NCBI RefSeq assembly: GCF_003987355.1
Contig: NZ_PIPR01000002.1
Span: 186,001 to 250,000, forward strand
DNA from: Pseudidiomarina aestuarii
GTDB taxonomy: Bacteria; Pseudomonadota; Gammaproteobacteria; Enterobacterales; Alteromonadaceae
DNA length: 64,000 nucleotides
Direction: 5' to 3'
Shown in pieces: positions 2,077 to 37,941 of this stretch. Within the stretch, counting starts at the first letter, position 1. Every line of letters starts with the position of its first letter. Made by a program: the position numbers and the translations under genes. The notes below the pieces were generated by a model that was not told where the DNA came from, did not search any database, and worked only from the letters and a program-made list of their open reading frames with translations.

Positions 2077-2760
2077 TTGTTGACCAGAATTCATCAGAAT
2101 CCAACTGGTGAGGATGTATTTGTCATTGGATTCTGGCACGGTACCGCGGTGGGTGTGGGTAAAGTAGCCAGGAGCAATGACCATACGTCCTGTTTTTGGT
2201 TGAATACTGCGATTCTGATAATAAAAATCGGTCGTGCCACCGTGTTCCACATCATTCAAATAAAACATAAAGAGTAAGCTTCGATGCAACGCTTCGACGC
2301 TATTTTTCTCTGGATATACTTCACAGTGCCAATAATTGTAGTTGCCTTTGCCCTGCGGATACTTCTGCGCCTGAATGGGTCCCATGCGATAAAGAAACTG
2401 CATGTAGGCCTCTTCGTTACCGGCTGCGATGTCGTCAAAATTTTCATGCGTTAAAGCGGTCGGCTCGCCTGTTTGCGGATGTTTTATTTGTAGGGCCACG
2501 TGGGCAATGAGGGCAAAACGGTATTTGGTAAAATACTCCACAGCATGCTTTCGAGTCGCCGCTTGAATGACCGCAAGAGCATCTTGGTAATCGGGATGCT
2601 GATTGAGATACAAGTCTTCACTGACTTTTTTATTGGTATCTACACCACCGCCGGTGCGGCCCGCTGTAAGGTGTGGACTCGTGTCAAAACGCTGAATGAA
2701 TTCACGACAAAATTCAGCCGACAGCGCATCATCATAAACTTCAATAAAATCTACAGCCAC
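2062..2760 (-). CDS. 2OG-Fe(II) oxygenase, prolyl-4-hydroxylase-like
   Basis: A 232-residue protein of the 2-oxoglutarate/Fe(II) dioxygenase fold, probably hydroxylating a small molecule or protein side chain. The C-terminal half shows the double-stranded beta-helix signature: WHCEVYP, where an H-x-E pair stands where most relatives have H-x-D, then YLNDVEHGGTTDFY, and a distal histidine in YFTHTHRG. Use of glutamate as the acidic iron ligand is a reading of mine that an alignment should confirm. The start is GTG at 2760 with AGGA 7 nt upstream on the minus strand. Substrate is unknown. The gene is convergent with the OsmC-type gene. Confidence 0.72.
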   Translation of the reverse strand: MAVDFIEVYDDALSAEFCREFIQRFDTSPHLTAGRTGGGVDTNKKVSEDLYLNQHPDYQDALAVIQAATRKHAVEYFTKYRFALIAHVALQIKHPQTGEPTALTHENFDDIAAGNEEAYMQFLYRMGPIQAQKYPQGKGNYNYWHCEVYPEKNSVEALHRSLLFMFYLNDVEHGGTTDFYYQNRSIQPKTGRMVIAPGYFTHTHRGTVPESNDKYILTSWILMNSGQQLFGA

Positions 2761-2810
2761 AACATATCCTGAAACGAAGATAGATAGCCATACACTAGCT
2801 GATGTCGCTG

Positions 2811-2846
2811 CAAAAAAGAAGGCGCGGATTCGTGAGAAGCCGCGCC
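2811..2846 (-). terminator. Rho-independent terminator after the wHTH-receiver gene
   Basis: Read on the minus strand, stem GGCGCGG/CCGCGCC with a 12-nt loop is followed by TTCTTTTTT. It lies about 110 nt past the stop at 2958, just before the 2OG oxygenase start. A second, compound hairpin at 2921-2963 (8-bp outer stem CCGTGAAA/TTTCACGG, 6-bp inner stem GCACAT/ATGTGC) overlaps that stop codon itself. Confidence 0.75.
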
Positions 2847-2957
2847 CTTAAATTTGAATGTCTGTCATTTCAAATCAAATAAATAGCCATCCATGGCGAA
2901 GCCATCCGTGGTTCGCACATCCGTGAAACAAACTGCACATTGAGTATGTGCTGCTTT

Positions 2958-3869
2958 TCACGGTTTGTCTTTGAAACGATTTGAAGAATTTTGAAGCGGC
3001 ATATTCATGATGGTTTCAACGAGGGTATCGGGGTTGGTGGTAACGGCATAACCCCCTTTTTCAGCAAATAAGTGACGTTGCGCTTCGTTGGCAACTATAG
3101 TGTAGAGCACAAAAGGCGTGTCATCGCCTCTTGCTCGCATGGCATCGAGTAATCGCATACCTGCGAGCGGATCATCATGACGCCCCATATCTGAGATAAC
3201 GATGTCGTAGTTATACAATTCAAGCAGTGTTAATGCATCGTCAGTCGTCAACGCGCTGTAGACACCAAAAGCATGCGTTTCAAAGTAAGTAACTTCTCGT
3301 TCATTGTTGGATGGATTATCGTCCACCCACAAAATACGACCGACCACTTCAAGTGGCTCGCTGTATTTGATCACTCGAGGAGTATTGGCTTCAGTATGAA
3401 ATGCCGTCATGTAAATGGGTGCAGAAATGGCGGCAATTGCCAGCATAACGACTGTACTAATCCAGACTTTTTTGTTCTTGGCAGGCGTTGGCGTCGTCAC
3501 AGGTTGTGACGGCGTGACACTGTTATTGGGCTGATTCAACCTTTGCGCTAACTCCGGCGCGAGTCGATAACCACGCCCACGCAGCGTCTGAATAATCGCT
3601 AGATCATACTGGTGAGACTTAAAAAAGGTTCGGGCGTCTGCAACAAGACGCGACGCGGACCAAGTCGATACGACGGAGCCGTTCCACAGTGTCTCGAGTA
3701 ATTCCTTTTGACTGACTACTTCTGGATATTTCTGAATCAGTAGTATCATCAGTTTAATGATACGACTGTCGATCTGAAGCAATTTTCCCTGATAGTCGAT
3801 ACACAGTTGGTCGGAGTCGATCGTAAATCCATCAAATGTGTACTTCAACGGAGCCCCTAATTCAATCAA
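2958..3869 (-). CDS. Membrane winged-helix regulator with C-terminal receiver domain
   Basis: A 303-residue protein with an unusual order of parts. Residues 10-103 are an OmpR/ToxR-type winged helix (ending LRGRGYRLAPEL). A proline/threonine-rich linker follows at 112-130, then lysines at 131-134, one hydrophobic segment at about 135-157, and a response-regulator receiver fold at about 178-290. In the receiver the acidic pair D183/D184, the phospho-acceptor D227 (DIVISDMG) and T257 are kept, but the usual K of the KP motif is N279. ToxR/CadC proteins have the first two parts. The receiver after a membrane span is odd, because a cytoplasmic winged helix would place it in the periplasm. The start is uncertain: TTG at 3869 has no clear ribosome site, while TTG at codon 8 follows AGGGG. 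Confidence 0.78.
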   Translation of the reverse strand: MIELGAPLKYTFDGFTIDSDQLCIDYQGKLLQIDSRIIKLMILLIQKYPEVVSQKELLETLWNGSVVSTWSASRLVADARTFFKSHQYDLAIIQTLRGRGYRLAPELAQRLNQPNNSVTPSQPVTTPTPAKNKKVWISTVVMLAIAAISAPIYMTAFHTEANTPRVIKYSEPLEVVGRILWVDDNPSNNEREVTYFETHAFGVYSALTTDDALTLLELYNYDIVISDMGRHDDPLAGMRLLDAMRARGDDTPFVLYTIVANEAQRHLFAEKGGYAVTTNPDTLVETIMNMPLQNSSNRFKDKP

Positions 3870-3906
3870 TTAACCACTACTCGATTATGCCACGAGTAGT
3901 GGTTAA
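3870..3906. promoter_or_regulatory. Perfect 14-bp inverted repeat before the wHTH-receiver gene
   Basis: TTAACCACTACTCG at 3870-3883 and its exact complement at 3893-3906 flank a 9-nt spacer. It sits between the peroxiredoxin stop (3932) and the possible TTG start at 3869, with no U-run after it. It could be an operator for a dimeric regulator, an RNA hairpin masking the start, or a weak terminator for the peroxiredoxin gene. Confidence 0.6.
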
Positions 3907-3931
3907 TGCTAGGGCTTCGTATGAAATTTAA

Positions 3932-4564
3932 TCATTTATCGAGTTCAGTAATGCGCAAGTATGGCTTCAAAGTTGTCCAACCTTGAGGGAACTTTTTCTT
4001 GGCGTCTTCATCGCTGACGGTGGGGCGAATAATGACTGGATTACCCGGACGCCAATCTGCTGGACAAGCAACCTCTTGCTTATCGGTTGTTTGCAATGCA
4101 TCAATCACGCGCAAGATCTCGTCAAAATTGCGTCCGACGGTCATCGGATAGGTCATCATCAAACGGATCTTCATCGACGGGTCAATGATGAAAACTGAGC
4201 GCACCGTAGCCGTGACACTCTCATTCGGGTGAATCATGTCGTACAGCTGCGCAATTTTCAGTTCTTTGTCAGCCACAATTGGAAACTCCAGAACGGTGTT
4301 CTGAGTTTCGTTGACATCTTGAATCCAGCCTTTGTGTTGTTCAACCGTGTCGGTCGATAAGCCAAGTGGTTTGACATTACGTTTGGCAAATTCTGGAGCC
4401 AGTTGTGAGGTGCGCCCCATCTCGGTCGTGCAAACCGGCGTGTAGTCTGCCGGGTGGCTGAAAAAGAACACCCACGATCCCTGCGCCCAGTCGTGCAGCC
4501 GGATAGGGCCATTCGTGGTATCGATGGAAAAGTCAGGCGCGGTATCGCCAATACGCAGTGCCAT
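3932..4564 (-). CDS. Peroxiredoxin, 1-Cys (Prx6-type)
   Basis: Reduces hydrogen peroxide and organic peroxides in the cytoplasm. The protein is 210 residues from the ATG at 4564. The peroxidatic cysteine is C45 in the family motif HPADYTPVCTTE, and the late VACPADWRPGNPVI segment is typical of the Prx6/1-Cys group. The open frame runs 17 codons further upstream, but a strong AGGAGG at 4571-4576 with 6 nt spacing fixes the start at 4564, and family alignment begins there (ALRIGDTAPDF). Repeat copy A lies just upstream, so its promoter must lie inside or beyond that element. The gene stands between a regulator and a DNA-damage protein with no obvious operon partner. Confidence 0.92.
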   Translation of the reverse strand: MALRIGDTAPDFSIDTTNGPIRLHDWAQGSWVFFFSHPADYTPVCTTEMGRTSQLAPEFAKRNVKPLGLSTDTVEQHKGWIQDVNETQNTVLEFPIVADKELKIAQLYDMIHPNESVTATVRSVFIIDPSMKIRLMMTYPMTVGRNFDEILRVIDALQTTDKQEVACPADWRPGNPVIIRPTVSDEDAKKKFPQGWTTLKPYLRITELDK

Positions 4565-4592
4565 AATAAACCTCCTGAACATAAAAATCGTT

Positions 4593-4677
4593 AAAAGCGA
4601 ATAGTTACTGGCCACTCGACGAGCACAGATCTGTGTTTTCTAGTAACTAATATCTATCAGCCAGTAACCAATAGTTT
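4593..4677. repeat. Heptamer palindromic intergenic repeat, copy A
   Basis: First of five copies of one element. It opens with AAAAGCG at 4593-4599, has a short left arm (TTACTGG, CCACTCG), the perfect 12-bp palindrome CACAGATCTGTG at 4624-4635, then TTTTCTA and right-arm 7-mers GTAACTA, ATATCTA, TCAGCCA, GTAACCA. It lies about 42 bp past the YedK stop (4719) and 20 bp before the peroxiredoxin ribosome site. On the minus strand it ends CGCTTTT, so it may terminate the YedK transcript. Confidence 0.8.
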
Positions 4678-4681
4678 AGTT

Positions 4682-4697
4682 GACCACTTCGGTGGTC
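4682..4697. terminator. Short GACCAC/GTGGTC hairpin with TTCG loop
   Basis: A perfect 6-bp stem with a TTCG tetraloop lies 22 nt past the YedK stop on the minus strand. No U-run follows, so it is more likely an RNA-stabilising hairpin than a full terminator. Confidence 0.35.
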
Positions 4698-4718
4698 GTT
4701 AGTTTGATTTACGCTAAG

Positions 4719-5297
4719 TTATTCTGCTTGGCTCACCTGGATGGCCGCATCTGGGAGTGGTTGTAGTAACGGTCCTAACTGTTCGACAGCGCTGGTGAAC
4801 CAATAATTCATAGCGTCCACTAGGACAAAGAATGGCATGCGATGATGATACGCTGCGCAGGTTTCATTCGGTGCAATGGTCAAACTGACGAGTTCTGGAT
4901 GCTGTGGACCATGGAAGACGAGTCCTCCCATAAATAGAGGGCTGTTGTCCCTGCTTTCGAACAGATACTTCACTTTACGACCTTCTTCGGTTCGCCACTC
5001 GTAGTAACCTGAAACTGGAATCACACAACGTGATTGGGTAAAAGCACGCTTAAAGGTAGGCTTCACTGCCGCTGTTTCTACTTGGGCATTAATCAGAAGT
5101 TTTGTTGCCCAGGTTGGCTGAATACCCCAGCGTGTCGGTACTTGCTGGATTGACTCTGTCGTTTGATTCCACATCAATGTGTCAATGCGCTGAGTAGGGC
5201 GCAAGTCAGTATTATCCTGTGTTTTGAATTCGATACCCAACTGCTCGTCGAGATACGCAGTTAACGGCGCTGCGATCACATTCATGCGGCCACACAT
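4719..5297 (-). CDS. yedK: SRAP/HMCES-family abasic-site shielding protein (YedK-like)
   Basis: Family members form a stable thiazolidine link through the N-terminal cysteine to abasic sites in single-stranded DNA and so protect replication forks. At 192 residues the length is close to the family's roughly 200-230. C2 is exposed after Met removal (MCGRM), N70 is in INA, E100 is in GYYEW, and the late histidine is H151 in YHHRMP. Two deviations stand out: the Arg of the common INAR motif is Gln (Q72), and the Asp of HDRMP is His (H152). ATG at 5297 has GGAGGG 9 nt upstream. Whether it is SOS controlled is unknown, as I saw no LexA box. Confidence 0.88.
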   Translation of the reverse strand: MCGRMNVIAAPLTAYLDEQLGIEFKTQDNTDLRPTQRIDTLMWNQTTESIQQVPTRWGIQPTWATKLLINAQVETAAVKPTFKRAFTQSRCVIPVSGYYEWRTEEGRKVKYLFESRDNSPLFMGGLVFHGPQHPELVSLTIAPNETCAAYHHRMPFFVLVDAMNYWFTSAVEQLGPLLQPLPDAAIQVSQAE

Positions 5298-18266: not shown

Positions 18267-18278
18267 GAGTGCCTCGTA

Positions 18279-18384
18279 AACGTTACTAGCTAGTAGCTAC
18301 TAGTTACTAGAAAAGCATGGATCTGTGTTTTCTAATATCTAGTAGCCAGTAGCCAGTAGCCAGTAGCCAGTAGCCAGTAGCTAG
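18279..18384. repeat. Heptamer palindromic intergenic repeat, copy B (expanded arm)
   Basis: The longest copy. The left arm has four 7-mers from 18283 (TTACTAG, CTAGTAG, CTACTAG, TTACTAG), then AAAAGC, a centre with GATCTGTG, TTTTCTA, and a right arm whose AGTAGCC unit is repeated five times exactly (18341-18375) plus a sixth, AGTAGCT. Its right edge supplies the TAG stop of the GPP34 gene (18381-18383, minus strand). Confidence 0.88.
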
Positions 18385-21859: not shown

Positions 21860-22561
21860 ATGACACTAATCTATCAAATCAATCGCAGCCGCAAACGCCG
21901 CTCTGTTGCTATCAAAGTGAAGCAGGGCGAGGTGCGAGTGGACGCCCCGTGGTATGTCACAGACAGTCGTATTCACGCTGTGGTGGAGCAGAAACGTGAG
22001 TGGATTGAGAAGCACCTTTACCGTCAGCAACAACAGCTGCAAGCGTTGACTCGGCGACTTTGGCAAGCGGGTGAAGAAATTCGTTGGTTGGGTGAGCCGT
22101 TGCTGTTGAAGGTGCAAACAGGCAGCAAGGGGCAGTGCGAGCGCCATGAACAGCAGTTATTGGTGACCGTTCCGCAGCGCGTGAAGCAGCAAAGTGCGTA
22201 TATTGAGAAGCACGTGAAAGCTTGGTTCAAACAACATGCACTGCAATGGTTAGATGCATTTTTTGCGCAGTGGAGCCATGCTGAGCTGCAGCCCAAAAGT
22301 TGGGCACTGGCTGACTTTTCCAGCAAATGGGGACATTGTTCGGTAAAGGGGGAACTCAAATTCACGTGGAAGTTGTGGCTAGCCCCAGAATCAGTCGTGC
22401 GCTCGGTTGTGCTGCACGAACTCGCACACCTGCGCGAGTTCAATCACAGCAAAGCCTTCTGGCAAGAGGTCGCGGCTATCGACCCGGACTATCAGGTGTC
22501 TGAGCGCTGGCTCAAACAGCACGGCAGCACCACCCTAGCTCCCAACTACCTCAGCTACTAG
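21860..22561 (+). CDS. ygjP: YgjP/SprT-like zinc-dependent protein
   Basis: A 233-residue member of the YgjP (DUF45, M48-like) family. The zinc motif is HELAH in SVVLHELAHLREFNHSKAFW, with a third ligand later. The core has FSSKWGHCSVKGELKFTWKLWLAP, the family signature. The frame opens at GTG 21836, but ATG 21860 (TLIYQINRSRKRRSVAI) fits relatives better; the start is not certain. The last codons (LSY, stop TAG at 22559-22561) are written by repeat copy C, so the native C-terminus may have been replaced. Peptidase activity is inferred from the fold. Confidence 0.85.
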   Translation: MTLIYQINRSRKRRSVAIKVKQGEVRVDAPWYVTDSRIHAVVEQKREWIEKHLYRQQQQLQALTRRLWQAGEEIRWLGEPLLLKVQTGSKGQCERHEQQLLVTVPQRVKQQSAYIEKHVKAWFKQHALQWLDAFFAQWSHAELQPKSWALADFSSKWGHCSVKGELKFTWKLWLAPESVVRSVVLHELAHLREFNHSKAFWQEVAAIDPDYQVSERWLKQHGSTTLAPNYLSY

Positions 22562-22637
22562 CTATTAGCTTCTAGTTACTAGAAAAGCGCAGATCTGTGT
22601 TTTCTAGTAGCCAGTAACCAATAACCAGTCACGCTTT
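22555..22637. repeat. Heptamer palindromic intergenic repeat, copy C
   Basis: It fills the whole gap between convergent genes: left-arm units CTACTAG, CTATTAG, CTTCTAG, TTACTAG, then AAAAGC, centre GCAGATCTGTG, TTTTCTA, right-arm units GTAGCCA, GTAACCA, ATAACCA, and CACGCTTTT. It supplies the stop of the YgjP-type gene and touches the stop of the DPP-IV gene at 22637-22639. It probably works as the terminator between them. Confidence 0.85.
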
Positions 22638-31927: not shown

Positions 31928-32527
31928 ATGTTGCTGATGATCGATAATTACGACTCTTTCACACACAACGTCGTACGTTATTTCCGTGAGCTGAAAGCGG
32001 AAGTCAAAGTTATTCGTAACGACGAACTGACACTAGCAGGAATCGAGGAGCTTCCGCTCAGCGGTATCGTCATTTCACCGGGTCCGTGTACGCCCAATGA
32101 AGCCGGTATTTCACTCGCAGTCATTGAACACTTTGCTGGGAAACTTCCTATTCTGGGGGTATGTCTTGGGCATCAAGCCATTGGCCAAGTTTTTGGCGCC
32201 AAAGTGGTGCGAGCAAACGCAGTCATGCATGGTAAAACGTCGAGTGTCGAGCACACTCAAACAGGCCTGTTTCACAATCTACCGAATCCTTTCACAGTCG
32301 CTCGCTACCATTCACTGCTGTTAGCCAGCGACAGTATTCCCGATACTTTGGTCGTTGATGCTTGGACTACTGCAAGCTCAGGTGAACGCGAAGTGATGGC
32401 GATACGGCATCGCGATCTACCCATCTGGGGCGTCCAGTATCATCCTGAAGCCATCCAAACCGAGCATGGCCACCAACTACTAGCCAACTGGCTCAACCTC
32501 AAAGCGAAAAGCGTTACTAGCTATTAG
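31928..32527 (+). CDS. pabA: Aminodeoxychorismate/anthranilate synthase glutaminase subunit
   Basis: Provides ammonia from glutamine to chorismate-using synthases for folate (PabA) or tryptophan (TrpG). A 199-residue class I glutaminase with nucleophile Cys in [11 protein letters not shown] and the His/Glu pair in [12 protein letters not shown]. In E. coli pabA lies beside argD; here the argD/astC gene follows, which favours pabA, and one protein may serve both pathways. The final residues SVTSY and the TAG stop are encoded by repeat copy D, so the C-terminus is a few residues longer or different from relatives. Confidence 0.9.
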
Positions 32528-32601
32528 CTACTCGTTACTAGAAGAGCGCAGATCTGTGTTTTCGAGTAACCAGTAGCTAATAGCCAATAGCGCTCTTTTT
32601 T
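32507..32601. repeat. Heptamer palindromic intergenic repeat, copy D (best preserved)
   Basis: AAAAGCG (32507-32513), left-arm 7-mers TTACTAG, CTATTAG, CTACTCG, TTACTAG (32514-32541), AAGAGC, centre GCAGATCTGTG, TTTTCGA, right-arm 7-mers GTAACCA, GTAGCTA, ATAGCCA, then ATAGCGCTCTTTTTT. A-tract, stem and T-tract give a rho-independent terminator shape for pabA. The pabA stop TAG lies in the second left unit. A separate small 7-bp tandem (ACTATTC twice, 32610-32623) follows. Confidence 0.88.
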
Positions 32602-37009: not shown

Positions 37010-37852
37010 ATGAACTATCGCCATAGCTATCATGCAGGCAACTTTGCTGATGTTTTGAAACATGCGTTGCAATGGGTGTGTTTAGACTACTTGACGCAAA
37101 AGGATAAACCGATGTTTGTGTTGGATACCCACGCAGGCATCGGTATGTATGATTTGACCGGAGAGCAAGCTCAGAAAACTGCAGAGTGGGAACAAGGTAT
37201 TGGCCGCTTGCTACAAGCGTCTCAGGTGCCCGAAGCGTTAGCAGGTTATGTTGCCGCAGTGCGCTCATTAAATGACGGTGATAGCATGCGCTGGTACCCC
37301 GGCTCACCATGGCTCACACAAGCACATTTGCGCGAGCAAGATCAACTGACATTGTCTGAATTGCACCCGTTGGATGCGATGGAACTTGCGGTCAACTTTC
37401 GCCGTCAGCGTCAGGTCAAAGTGCTGCAGCAAGAAAATGGTTACGCAGCAATGAAGGCGCTGTTACCACCCCCGCAAAAGCGCGGAATGGTATTGATTGA
37501 CCCACCCTTTGAGCAACGTGATGAGTTCGACCAAGTCATCAATGCCTTGCAAGCGGCACTGAAGCGCTGGAGTACGGGTACCTACGCAGTGTGGTATCCC
37601 ATCAAAGATCCGCTCACCATCGGCGAGTTTCATCAACGCGTCTTAGCGTTGCCACAAGCTGACAAAGTGTATGCGGTTGATTTACTGATCCGTGAGCCGC
37701 TCGACAACACCAAGCTGAATGGGTGCGGCATGCTGTTTATCAATCCTCCGTACGGACTGACCCAACAAGCCCCGGCTTTACTTGAGTTCCTGCGTCCATT
37801 GTTAGCTCAGGACCGCGGCGCTCAAGCACAAACCCAATGGCTAACTGACTAA
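37010..37852 (+). CDS. rlmJ: 23S rRNA (adenine-2030-N6)-methyltransferase
   Basis: Methylates A2030 in 23S rRNA with S-adenosylmethionine. It is 280 residues, the RlmJ length. NYRHSYHAGNFADVLKHA is the family N-terminus, LDTHAGIGMYDL the SAM loop, and IDPPFEQRDEF the DPP(F/Y) catalytic motif. GCGMLFINPPYGL is near the end. Overlaps nothing; it ends one base before repeat copy E. Probably the last gene of the ast transcript, terminated by that repeat. Confidence 0.95.
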   Translation: MNYRHSYHAGNFADVLKHALQWVCLDYLTQKDKPMFVLDTHAGIGMYDLTGEQAQKTAEWEQGIGRLLQASQVPEALAGYVAAVRSLNDGDSMRWYPGSPWLTQAHLREQDQLTLSELHPLDAMELAVNFRRQRQVKVLQQENGYAAMKALLPPPQKRGMVLIDPPFEQRDEFDQVINALQAALKRWSTGTYAVWYPIKDPLTIGEFHQRVLALPQADKVYAVDLLIREPLDNTKLNGCGMLFINPPYGLTQQAPALLEFLRPLLAQDRGAQAQTQWLTD

Positions 37853-37941
37853 AAGCGTTATTGGTGACTAGCTACTGGCTATTCGCAGAGCGAGATCTGT
37901 CTTTTCTAGTATCAAGTAGCCAATAGCTATTCGCATTTTTT
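37851..37941. repeat. Heptamer palindromic intergenic repeat, copy E
   Basis: It occupies the entire gap between convergent rlmJ (stop 37850-37852) and prkB (stop 37940-37942). AAAAGCG, left units TTATTGG, TGACTAG, CTACTGG, CTATTCG, then CAGAGC, centre GAGATCTGTC, TTTTCTA, right units GTATCAA, GTAGCCA, ATAGCTA and TTCGCATTTTTT. The A-tract and T-tract make it look like a bidirectional terminator. Confidence 0.85.

Follow-up and report, generated by a model that had tools for sequence, protein, structure and literature searches.

A 39-bp palindrome carrying an extended −10 motif ahead of a winged-helix–receiver regulator gene in Pseudidiomarina aestuarii: a candidate operator

Introduction

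The DNA-binding domains of CadC are reported to sit head-to-head on the motif TTAxxxxT (PMC5430869). Titles cited in the same paper have the winged helices of PhoB and OmpR on direct or tandem repeats, and a title cited in PMC8517210 describes the same for the OmpR-class protein ToxR. Membrane regulators with two-component domains, response_reg included, are called 'hybrid' in a 2023 survey (PMC10269533). In E. coli, 3'-to-5' exonucleases reportedly process the ends left by Rho termination (PMC7815308).

Here we describe a palindrome that lies between a 1-Cys peroxiredoxin gene (prx) and a gene for a membrane-anchored winged-helix regulator in Pseudidiomarina aestuarii. The window analysed is a stretch of 64,000 nucleotides (assembly GCF_003987355.1, contig NZ_PIPR01000002.1, positions 186,001 to 250,000), and coordinates are those of the window. 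The main features are as follows.

3932..4564, minus strand: 1-Cys peroxiredoxin gene (prx), the upstream gene; its stop codon (3934–3932) lies 24 nt before the repeat
3893..3907, minus strand: 5' arm of the inverted repeat on the coding strand, ATTAACCACTACTCG, perfect pairing
3884..3892, minus strand: loop, TGGCATAAT on the coding strand and ATTATGCCA on the plus strand, with TG at 3892–3891 and CATAAT at 3889–3884
3869..3883, minus strand: 3' arm of the inverted repeat, CGAGTAGTGGTTAAT, perfect pairing
3854..3858, minus strand: likely Shine-Dalgarno sequence (SD) of the regulator gene, AGGGG, ahead of TTG 3848
2958..3848, minus strand: regulator gene, winged helix–transmembrane helix–receiver; likely start TTG 3848–3846

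Results

Geometry and rarity of the inverted repeat

The arms of the repeat are 15 bp long and fully matched and enclose a loop of 9 nt, which gives a palindrome of 39 bp. A sequence-only reading of this DNA had described a perfect 14-bp inverted repeat at 3870–3906; perfection and place were right, but each arm is one pair longer, at 15 bp. By length, the repeat ranks first among all perfect repeats in the window with arms of at least 11 bp and loops of 0–30 nt. First-order Markov versions of the window (N = 40) yielded 0.65 repeats per 64 kb with arms of at least 10 bp and loops of 3–15 nt, and none with arms of at least 12 bp at the same loop lengths, so the 15-bp repeat is not a product of chance. 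A 364-kb sample of the genome, made up of the window and a further 300 kb, contained 33 perfect repeats with arms of at least 10 bp and loops of 3–15 nt. Three repeats in this sample have 15-bp arms, the palindrome at 3869–3907 included, and the other two, located in the further 300 kb, are both T-tailed. A search of positions 2700–4800 against Rfam returned five matches (E 0.59–5), all under the gathering scores and none covering the repeat. An integron attC site was considered and set aside: the palindrome is too short and has no match to GTTRRRY.

Start codon of the regulator gene

The regulator combines an OmpR/CadC-type winged helix (Pfam Trans_reg_C, PF00486, residues 25–96) with a hydrophobic helix at residues 128–146 (one transmembrane helix) and a C-terminal receiver domain at residues 172–264. 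The list of open reading frames places its start at TTG 3869, a codon that the inverted repeat abuts and whose T is shared by the 15th pair. In alignment, the first residue of all eight orthologs compared falls on TTG 3848 (L081 has two extra residues); this alignment omitted L079 and L082 of the ten orthologs then known, and nine others were found later. Of 18 orthologs, 17 have just one possible start at the position where the alignment begins or ahead of it, and the other (L114) has a second one three codons earlier. L082, which is outside the 18, has the aligned start plus a possible start five codons earlier. The seven extra residues implied by TTG 3869 occur in none of the 18. With the ortholog starts at TTG 3848 and AGGGG before that codon, the repeat therefore most likely ends 20 nt before the start, and the earlier statement that it touches the start codon gives way to the alignment of ortholog N-termini with TTG 3848–3846. 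Judged from these alignments, the start codon is most likely TTG 3848 instead of TTG 3869, and the repeat would then not cover the SD of the regulator gene.

An extended −10 motif forms the loop

Read along the coding strand, the loop consists of precisely TGGCATAAT, that is, TG, one base and CATAAT, an extended −10 that faces the regulator gene and matches the −10 consensus TATAAT at five of six positions. Motifs of this extended class occur 103 times in 728,000 strand-positions of the genome, so that 0.012 would be expected in the 83-nt intergenic gap, where TGGCATAAT is the sole occurrence. Across the 147 nt that precede the regulator start, no other −10 has five of six matches (A at position 2, T at position 6), and four weaker ones have four of six. 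Among 227 perfect repeats in the 364-kb sample (arms of at least 7 bp, loops of 6–14 nt), only the palindrome at 3869–3907 has an extended −10 in its loop, and a plain five-of-six −10 lies within the loop of five, this one counted among them; the motif was noticed first and tested afterwards, so these statistics are weaker than the figures suggest. The best-placed partner is the following.

3907..3912, minus strand: −35 candidate CTAGCA, three of six matches, spacer 17

A simple promoter scan that requires a −35 made no call at TGGCATAAT. By sequence match, a putative promoter lies within the palindrome and is oriented toward the regulator gene, with a −35 that is weak at three of six.

Distribution of the regulator and scans for further copies

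The regulator gene was found in none of 25 other genomes of the genus (three of them only 77–88% complete), where the best matches were winged-helix matches with E of 1.1e-6 or worse. Of 295 genomes drawn from the family, 9 carry it (E up to 1e-25), as do 13 of 394 drawn from the order (E up to 1e-40), the own genome included in both counts; the two samples overlap, and 19 ortholog genes were collected in all. These are 36–44% identical to the regulator, hence distant relatives, and at this distance no similar palindrome stands upstream of any of the 19. Perfect repeats with arms of at least 10 bp and loops of 3–20 nt were absent from the 150 nt upstream of 18 orthologs, the longest arm being 9 bp. 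The nineteenth, L082, has an 11-bp repeat lying 127 nt upstream, which comes with nine T in a row and is most likely the preceding gene's terminator. When the arm was compared with the upstream DNA of 10 orthologs, one match was of a quality reached by 5% of shuffles and the others were ordinary.

Scans for other copies gave a similar picture. The 14-nt arm, at one mismatch or fewer, has no genomic site beyond its own; at up to three mismatches it has seven sites in the window compared to 3.65 expected, and since 6 of 100 shuffles reached seven, it is not clearly enriched. Paired 10-bp arms with up to three mismatches in 20 matched the own site alone in the own genome, so no regulon is visible. 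The same scan found one site each in two other genomes of the genus (G008 and G018) with identical matched letters; the G008 site, the one of the two inspected, is inside a coding frame. The 10-bp arms with loops of 3–20 nt matched four times in 257 Gb of genome contigs, in four unrelated organisms, and ~4.2 chance matches are expected there with 20 bases fixed and the loop free to take 18 lengths. Viral contigs held no exact match to the 14-bp arms around a 9-base loop, and 101 bases compared by blastn (E 1) with plasmids and phages gave no match. The copy scans thus point neither to a mobile repeat nor to a regulon site.

The regulator family and its neighbourhood

The family set consists of window 2958–3848 together with L002, L003, L076–L083 and L107–L115. 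Its best sequence match in the PDB is the CadC winged helix (5ju7). By hydropathy, a hydrophobic 19-residue segment (128–146 here) is present in nine of nine aligned members, and the charge pattern suggests that the receiver domain lies in the periplasm. The acid pair D176–D177, the phospho-acceptor D220 and T250 are invariant in the same number of aligned members (9/9). The lysine usual near the end of a receiver domain is not conserved in the family (by eye), and the receiver of this family may therefore not be phosphorylated.

The gene order on the minus strand is SRAP protein (4719–5297), 1-Cys peroxiredoxin, repeat, regulator and 2OG-Fe(II) oxygenase (2062–2760). In 12 of the 19 orthologs (L002, L003, L076–L079, L082, L083, L107, L110, L111 and L113) the next codirectional reading frame is lipoprotein-like (cysteine box by eye), several with PKD-like stretches. 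Since the next gene here is the 2OG-Fe(II) oxygenase gene, the regulator appears to stand apart from the partner it usually has; a search of the own genome for a PKD-type partner gene gave one match, below the curated cut-off. In two genomes of the genus (L033 and L034), peroxiredoxin is followed by a hydrolase-like gene (identified by eye) and then by 2OG-Fe(II) oxygenase, so that the regulator here stands where the hydrolase-like gene sits. At L039 the hydrolase-like gene also follows peroxiredoxin, and something other than the oxygenase gene comes next.

Predicted folding of the leader RNA

The sequence-only reading had proposed that an RNA stem hides the initiation region. In its most specific form, which we regard as very doubtful, the hairpin in prx read-through RNA would set AGCCCU against AGGGG and hide the start, and translated mRNA would come solely from the proximal promoter. 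The partner segment is the following.

3911..3916, minus strand: AGCCCT, predicted partner of the SD region in read-through RNA (fold; no stronger than with shuffled flanks)

In the read-through RNA, the final four bases of the SD were predicted to be 5–15% unpaired, and individual SD bases 21–86% unpaired in a transcript starting at 3876–3878, as such control would have it. Against it, the start codon is predicted to be mostly paired in either RNA, whether from read-through or from the proximal promoter. Moreover, 21% of 300 shuffled 5' flanks hid the SD equally well or better, so the outer AGCCCU–SD pairing is not significant, and the palindrome is kept in none of the 19 orthologs. Pairing of the SD and start is predicted for the full-length RNA, but shuffled flanks often do as well, and the likely start lies outside the stem itself.

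A dispersed heptamer-armed element

The genome also contains a dispersed, nearly palindromic element, in which left-hand arrays of approximately TTACTAG or CTATTAG, a core near AAGAGCGCAGATCTGTGTTTTC and reverse-complement heptamers on the right follow one another; the number of heptamers differs per locus (arms by eye). The copies in the window are listed here.

~4596–4680: dispersed heptamer element
18277–18383: dispersed heptamer element
22553–22625: dispersed heptamer element
32510–32590: dispersed heptamer element
near 37850–37940: degenerate dispersed heptamer element

The core GCAGATCTGTGTTTT has 15 matches in the own genome at one mismatch or fewer. Two of the 14 cores found in arrays lie in a cluster, in which the left side is made up of the right-hand array of a preceding copy (by eye). 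Within the 25 other genomes of the genus the core matched just three times, singly in G004, G005 and G023 and without heptamer arms.

The palindrome had been suggested to be a worn copy of this element, which of all the readings considered here is the hardest to credit. One unit in each arm, CTACTCG, fits the heptamer pattern YTAYTMG, which occurs at 4.1e-4 per strand-base (~0.007 expected per 15-nt arm on both strands), and a genuine element stands only 0.7 kb away (~4596–4680). Set against these are the 26 occurrences of CTACTCG in the 364 kb sampled, the lack of clear enrichment of the arm at up to three mismatches (seven compared to 3.65 expected) and the structure of the palindrome itself. 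Its arms are perfect rather than diverged, each carries a single CTACTCG in place of at least two tandem heptamers, and what lies between them is not a GCAGATCTGTGTTTT-type core but a loop reading ATTATGCCA on the plus strand, whereas 14 of the 15 genomic core matches lie in heptamer arrays, 12 of them with several units on both sides (by eye). CCACTCG units paired 7 apart were not found in the window. With neither a second unit nor a core, and an arm that is unique at one mismatch or fewer, the suggestion of a worn copy is not supported.

Discussion

We favour, tentatively and short of calling it probable, the reading of the palindrome as a DNA operator around the promoter of the regulator gene, an ordinary on/off control site. 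The observed basis is the repeat, its place and a loop that equals the motif; promoter use and protein binding are what we infer, as is a binder that is possibly the gene's own product. RNA polymerase would recognise the loop as its extended −10, TGGCATAAT, and transcription would begin inside the 3' arm, at about 3876–3878, some 29 nt before TTG 3848. A dimeric regulator bound to both arms would lie over the start site and over the spacer between −10 and −35, and the gene would be repressed, possibly by its own product (autoregulation). An operator on the DNA had been proposed before, and the extended −10 in the loop, facing the regulator gene, strengthens that proposal, but the absence of the palindrome from all 19 orthologs, distant as these are, speaks against it. 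The head-to-head arrangement reported for CadC makes a palindromic site possible for this class. The arms miss TTAxxxxT, TTAACCAC ending in C (by eye), and a plus-strand match to that motif, TTAATGCT at 3903–3910, overlaps the outer end without a mirror partner, where chance matches are common (by eye). The direct or tandem sites of other OmpR-class winged helices count against a palindromic operator. A usual operator needs fewer than fifteen perfect pairs, and arms of such length better fit an RNA stem. If the operator reading is true, the palindrome offers a ready target site for membrane-anchored winged-helix regulators with a receiver beyond the transmembrane helix; if it is false, this is one more intergenic palindrome of the ordinary kind.

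The explanation that comes closest, although we think it unlikely to be the right one, places the function at the 3' end of the prx mRNA, where a U-poor stem-loop would insulate both genes through weak termination or by blocking 3'-to-5' exonucleases after Rho-dependent or processed ends. The stem-loop stands 24 nt past the prx stop, and its stem energy is −21.2 kcal/mol, the region outfolding 200 of 200 shuffles (z −4.87). Peroxiredoxin is encoded in 25 of 26 genomes of the genus (own included), and 11 of the 24 other prx genes of the genus have a U-tailed hairpin 13–34 nt after the stop (U-tails judged by eye; L044, one of the 11, read by eye), but the remaining 13 lack such a hairpin and run into a near codirectional reading frame. 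Among the ten perfect repeats with arms of at least 12 bp in the 364-kb sample, eight are terminator-like under a rule that asks, on one strand or the other, for at least 5 T among 8 positions close to the end of the stem, two of these barely reaching five; the two that fail are the palindrome at 3869–3907 and one inside a reading frame. The repeat thus occupies the usual terminator place yet has no U-tail. At most 4 T in 8 are found on either side, which confirms the earlier remark that there is no U-run and argues against an intrinsic terminator, and the loop of 9 contrasts with loops of 4–6 in the eight T-tailed repeats. A terminator scan did not call the palindrome, which says little because the scan stops at loops of 8. 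The operator and the prx 3'-end hairpin do not exclude each other. We consider it very improbable, all the same, that both roles are combined to the full, with a DNA operator round the −10 and an RNA hairpin that ends or protects prx mRNA and also hides the ribosome site of the regulator; in that case the regulator would be made from its own promoter only and not from prx read-through transcripts.

The palindrome may also serve no function, a near-palindrome having been perfected by template-switch repair in replication or a neutral insertion having been retained. Its absence ahead of all 19 orthologs examined, the lack of a second copy in the own genome and the chance-level result of the 257-Gb scan (4 compared to 4.2) are what this explanation would lead one to expect. 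We nevertheless hold it to be improbable: a 15-bp perfect repeat is not produced by chance alone, and this one is placed precisely between two genes, its loop filled by a −10 motif. We rank the operator first, followed in order by the hairpin at the prx 3' end, absence of function, control of translation and, last, a relic of the heptamer element.

Compared with intrinsic (Rho-independent) terminators, the palindrome at 3869–3907 shares the stable, perfect, GC-containing stem (−21.2 kcal/mol) placed 24 nt past a stop codon, and differs in having no U-rich tract and a loop of 9. Known promoter-overlapping operators of (self-regulated) transcription factor genes likewise consist of an inverted repeat over the −10 directly before the gene of a DNA-binding regulator; relative to these, the arms here are unusually long and perfect (15 bp), the spacer is 9 bp and a second genomic copy is missing. 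The encoded regulator resembles the membrane-anchored OmpR-class proteins of the CadC/ToxR type in its N-terminal winged helix, its one transmembrane helix and the net positive charge before that helix. Unlike them, it carries a C-terminal receiver domain, which by this topology would be periplasmic.
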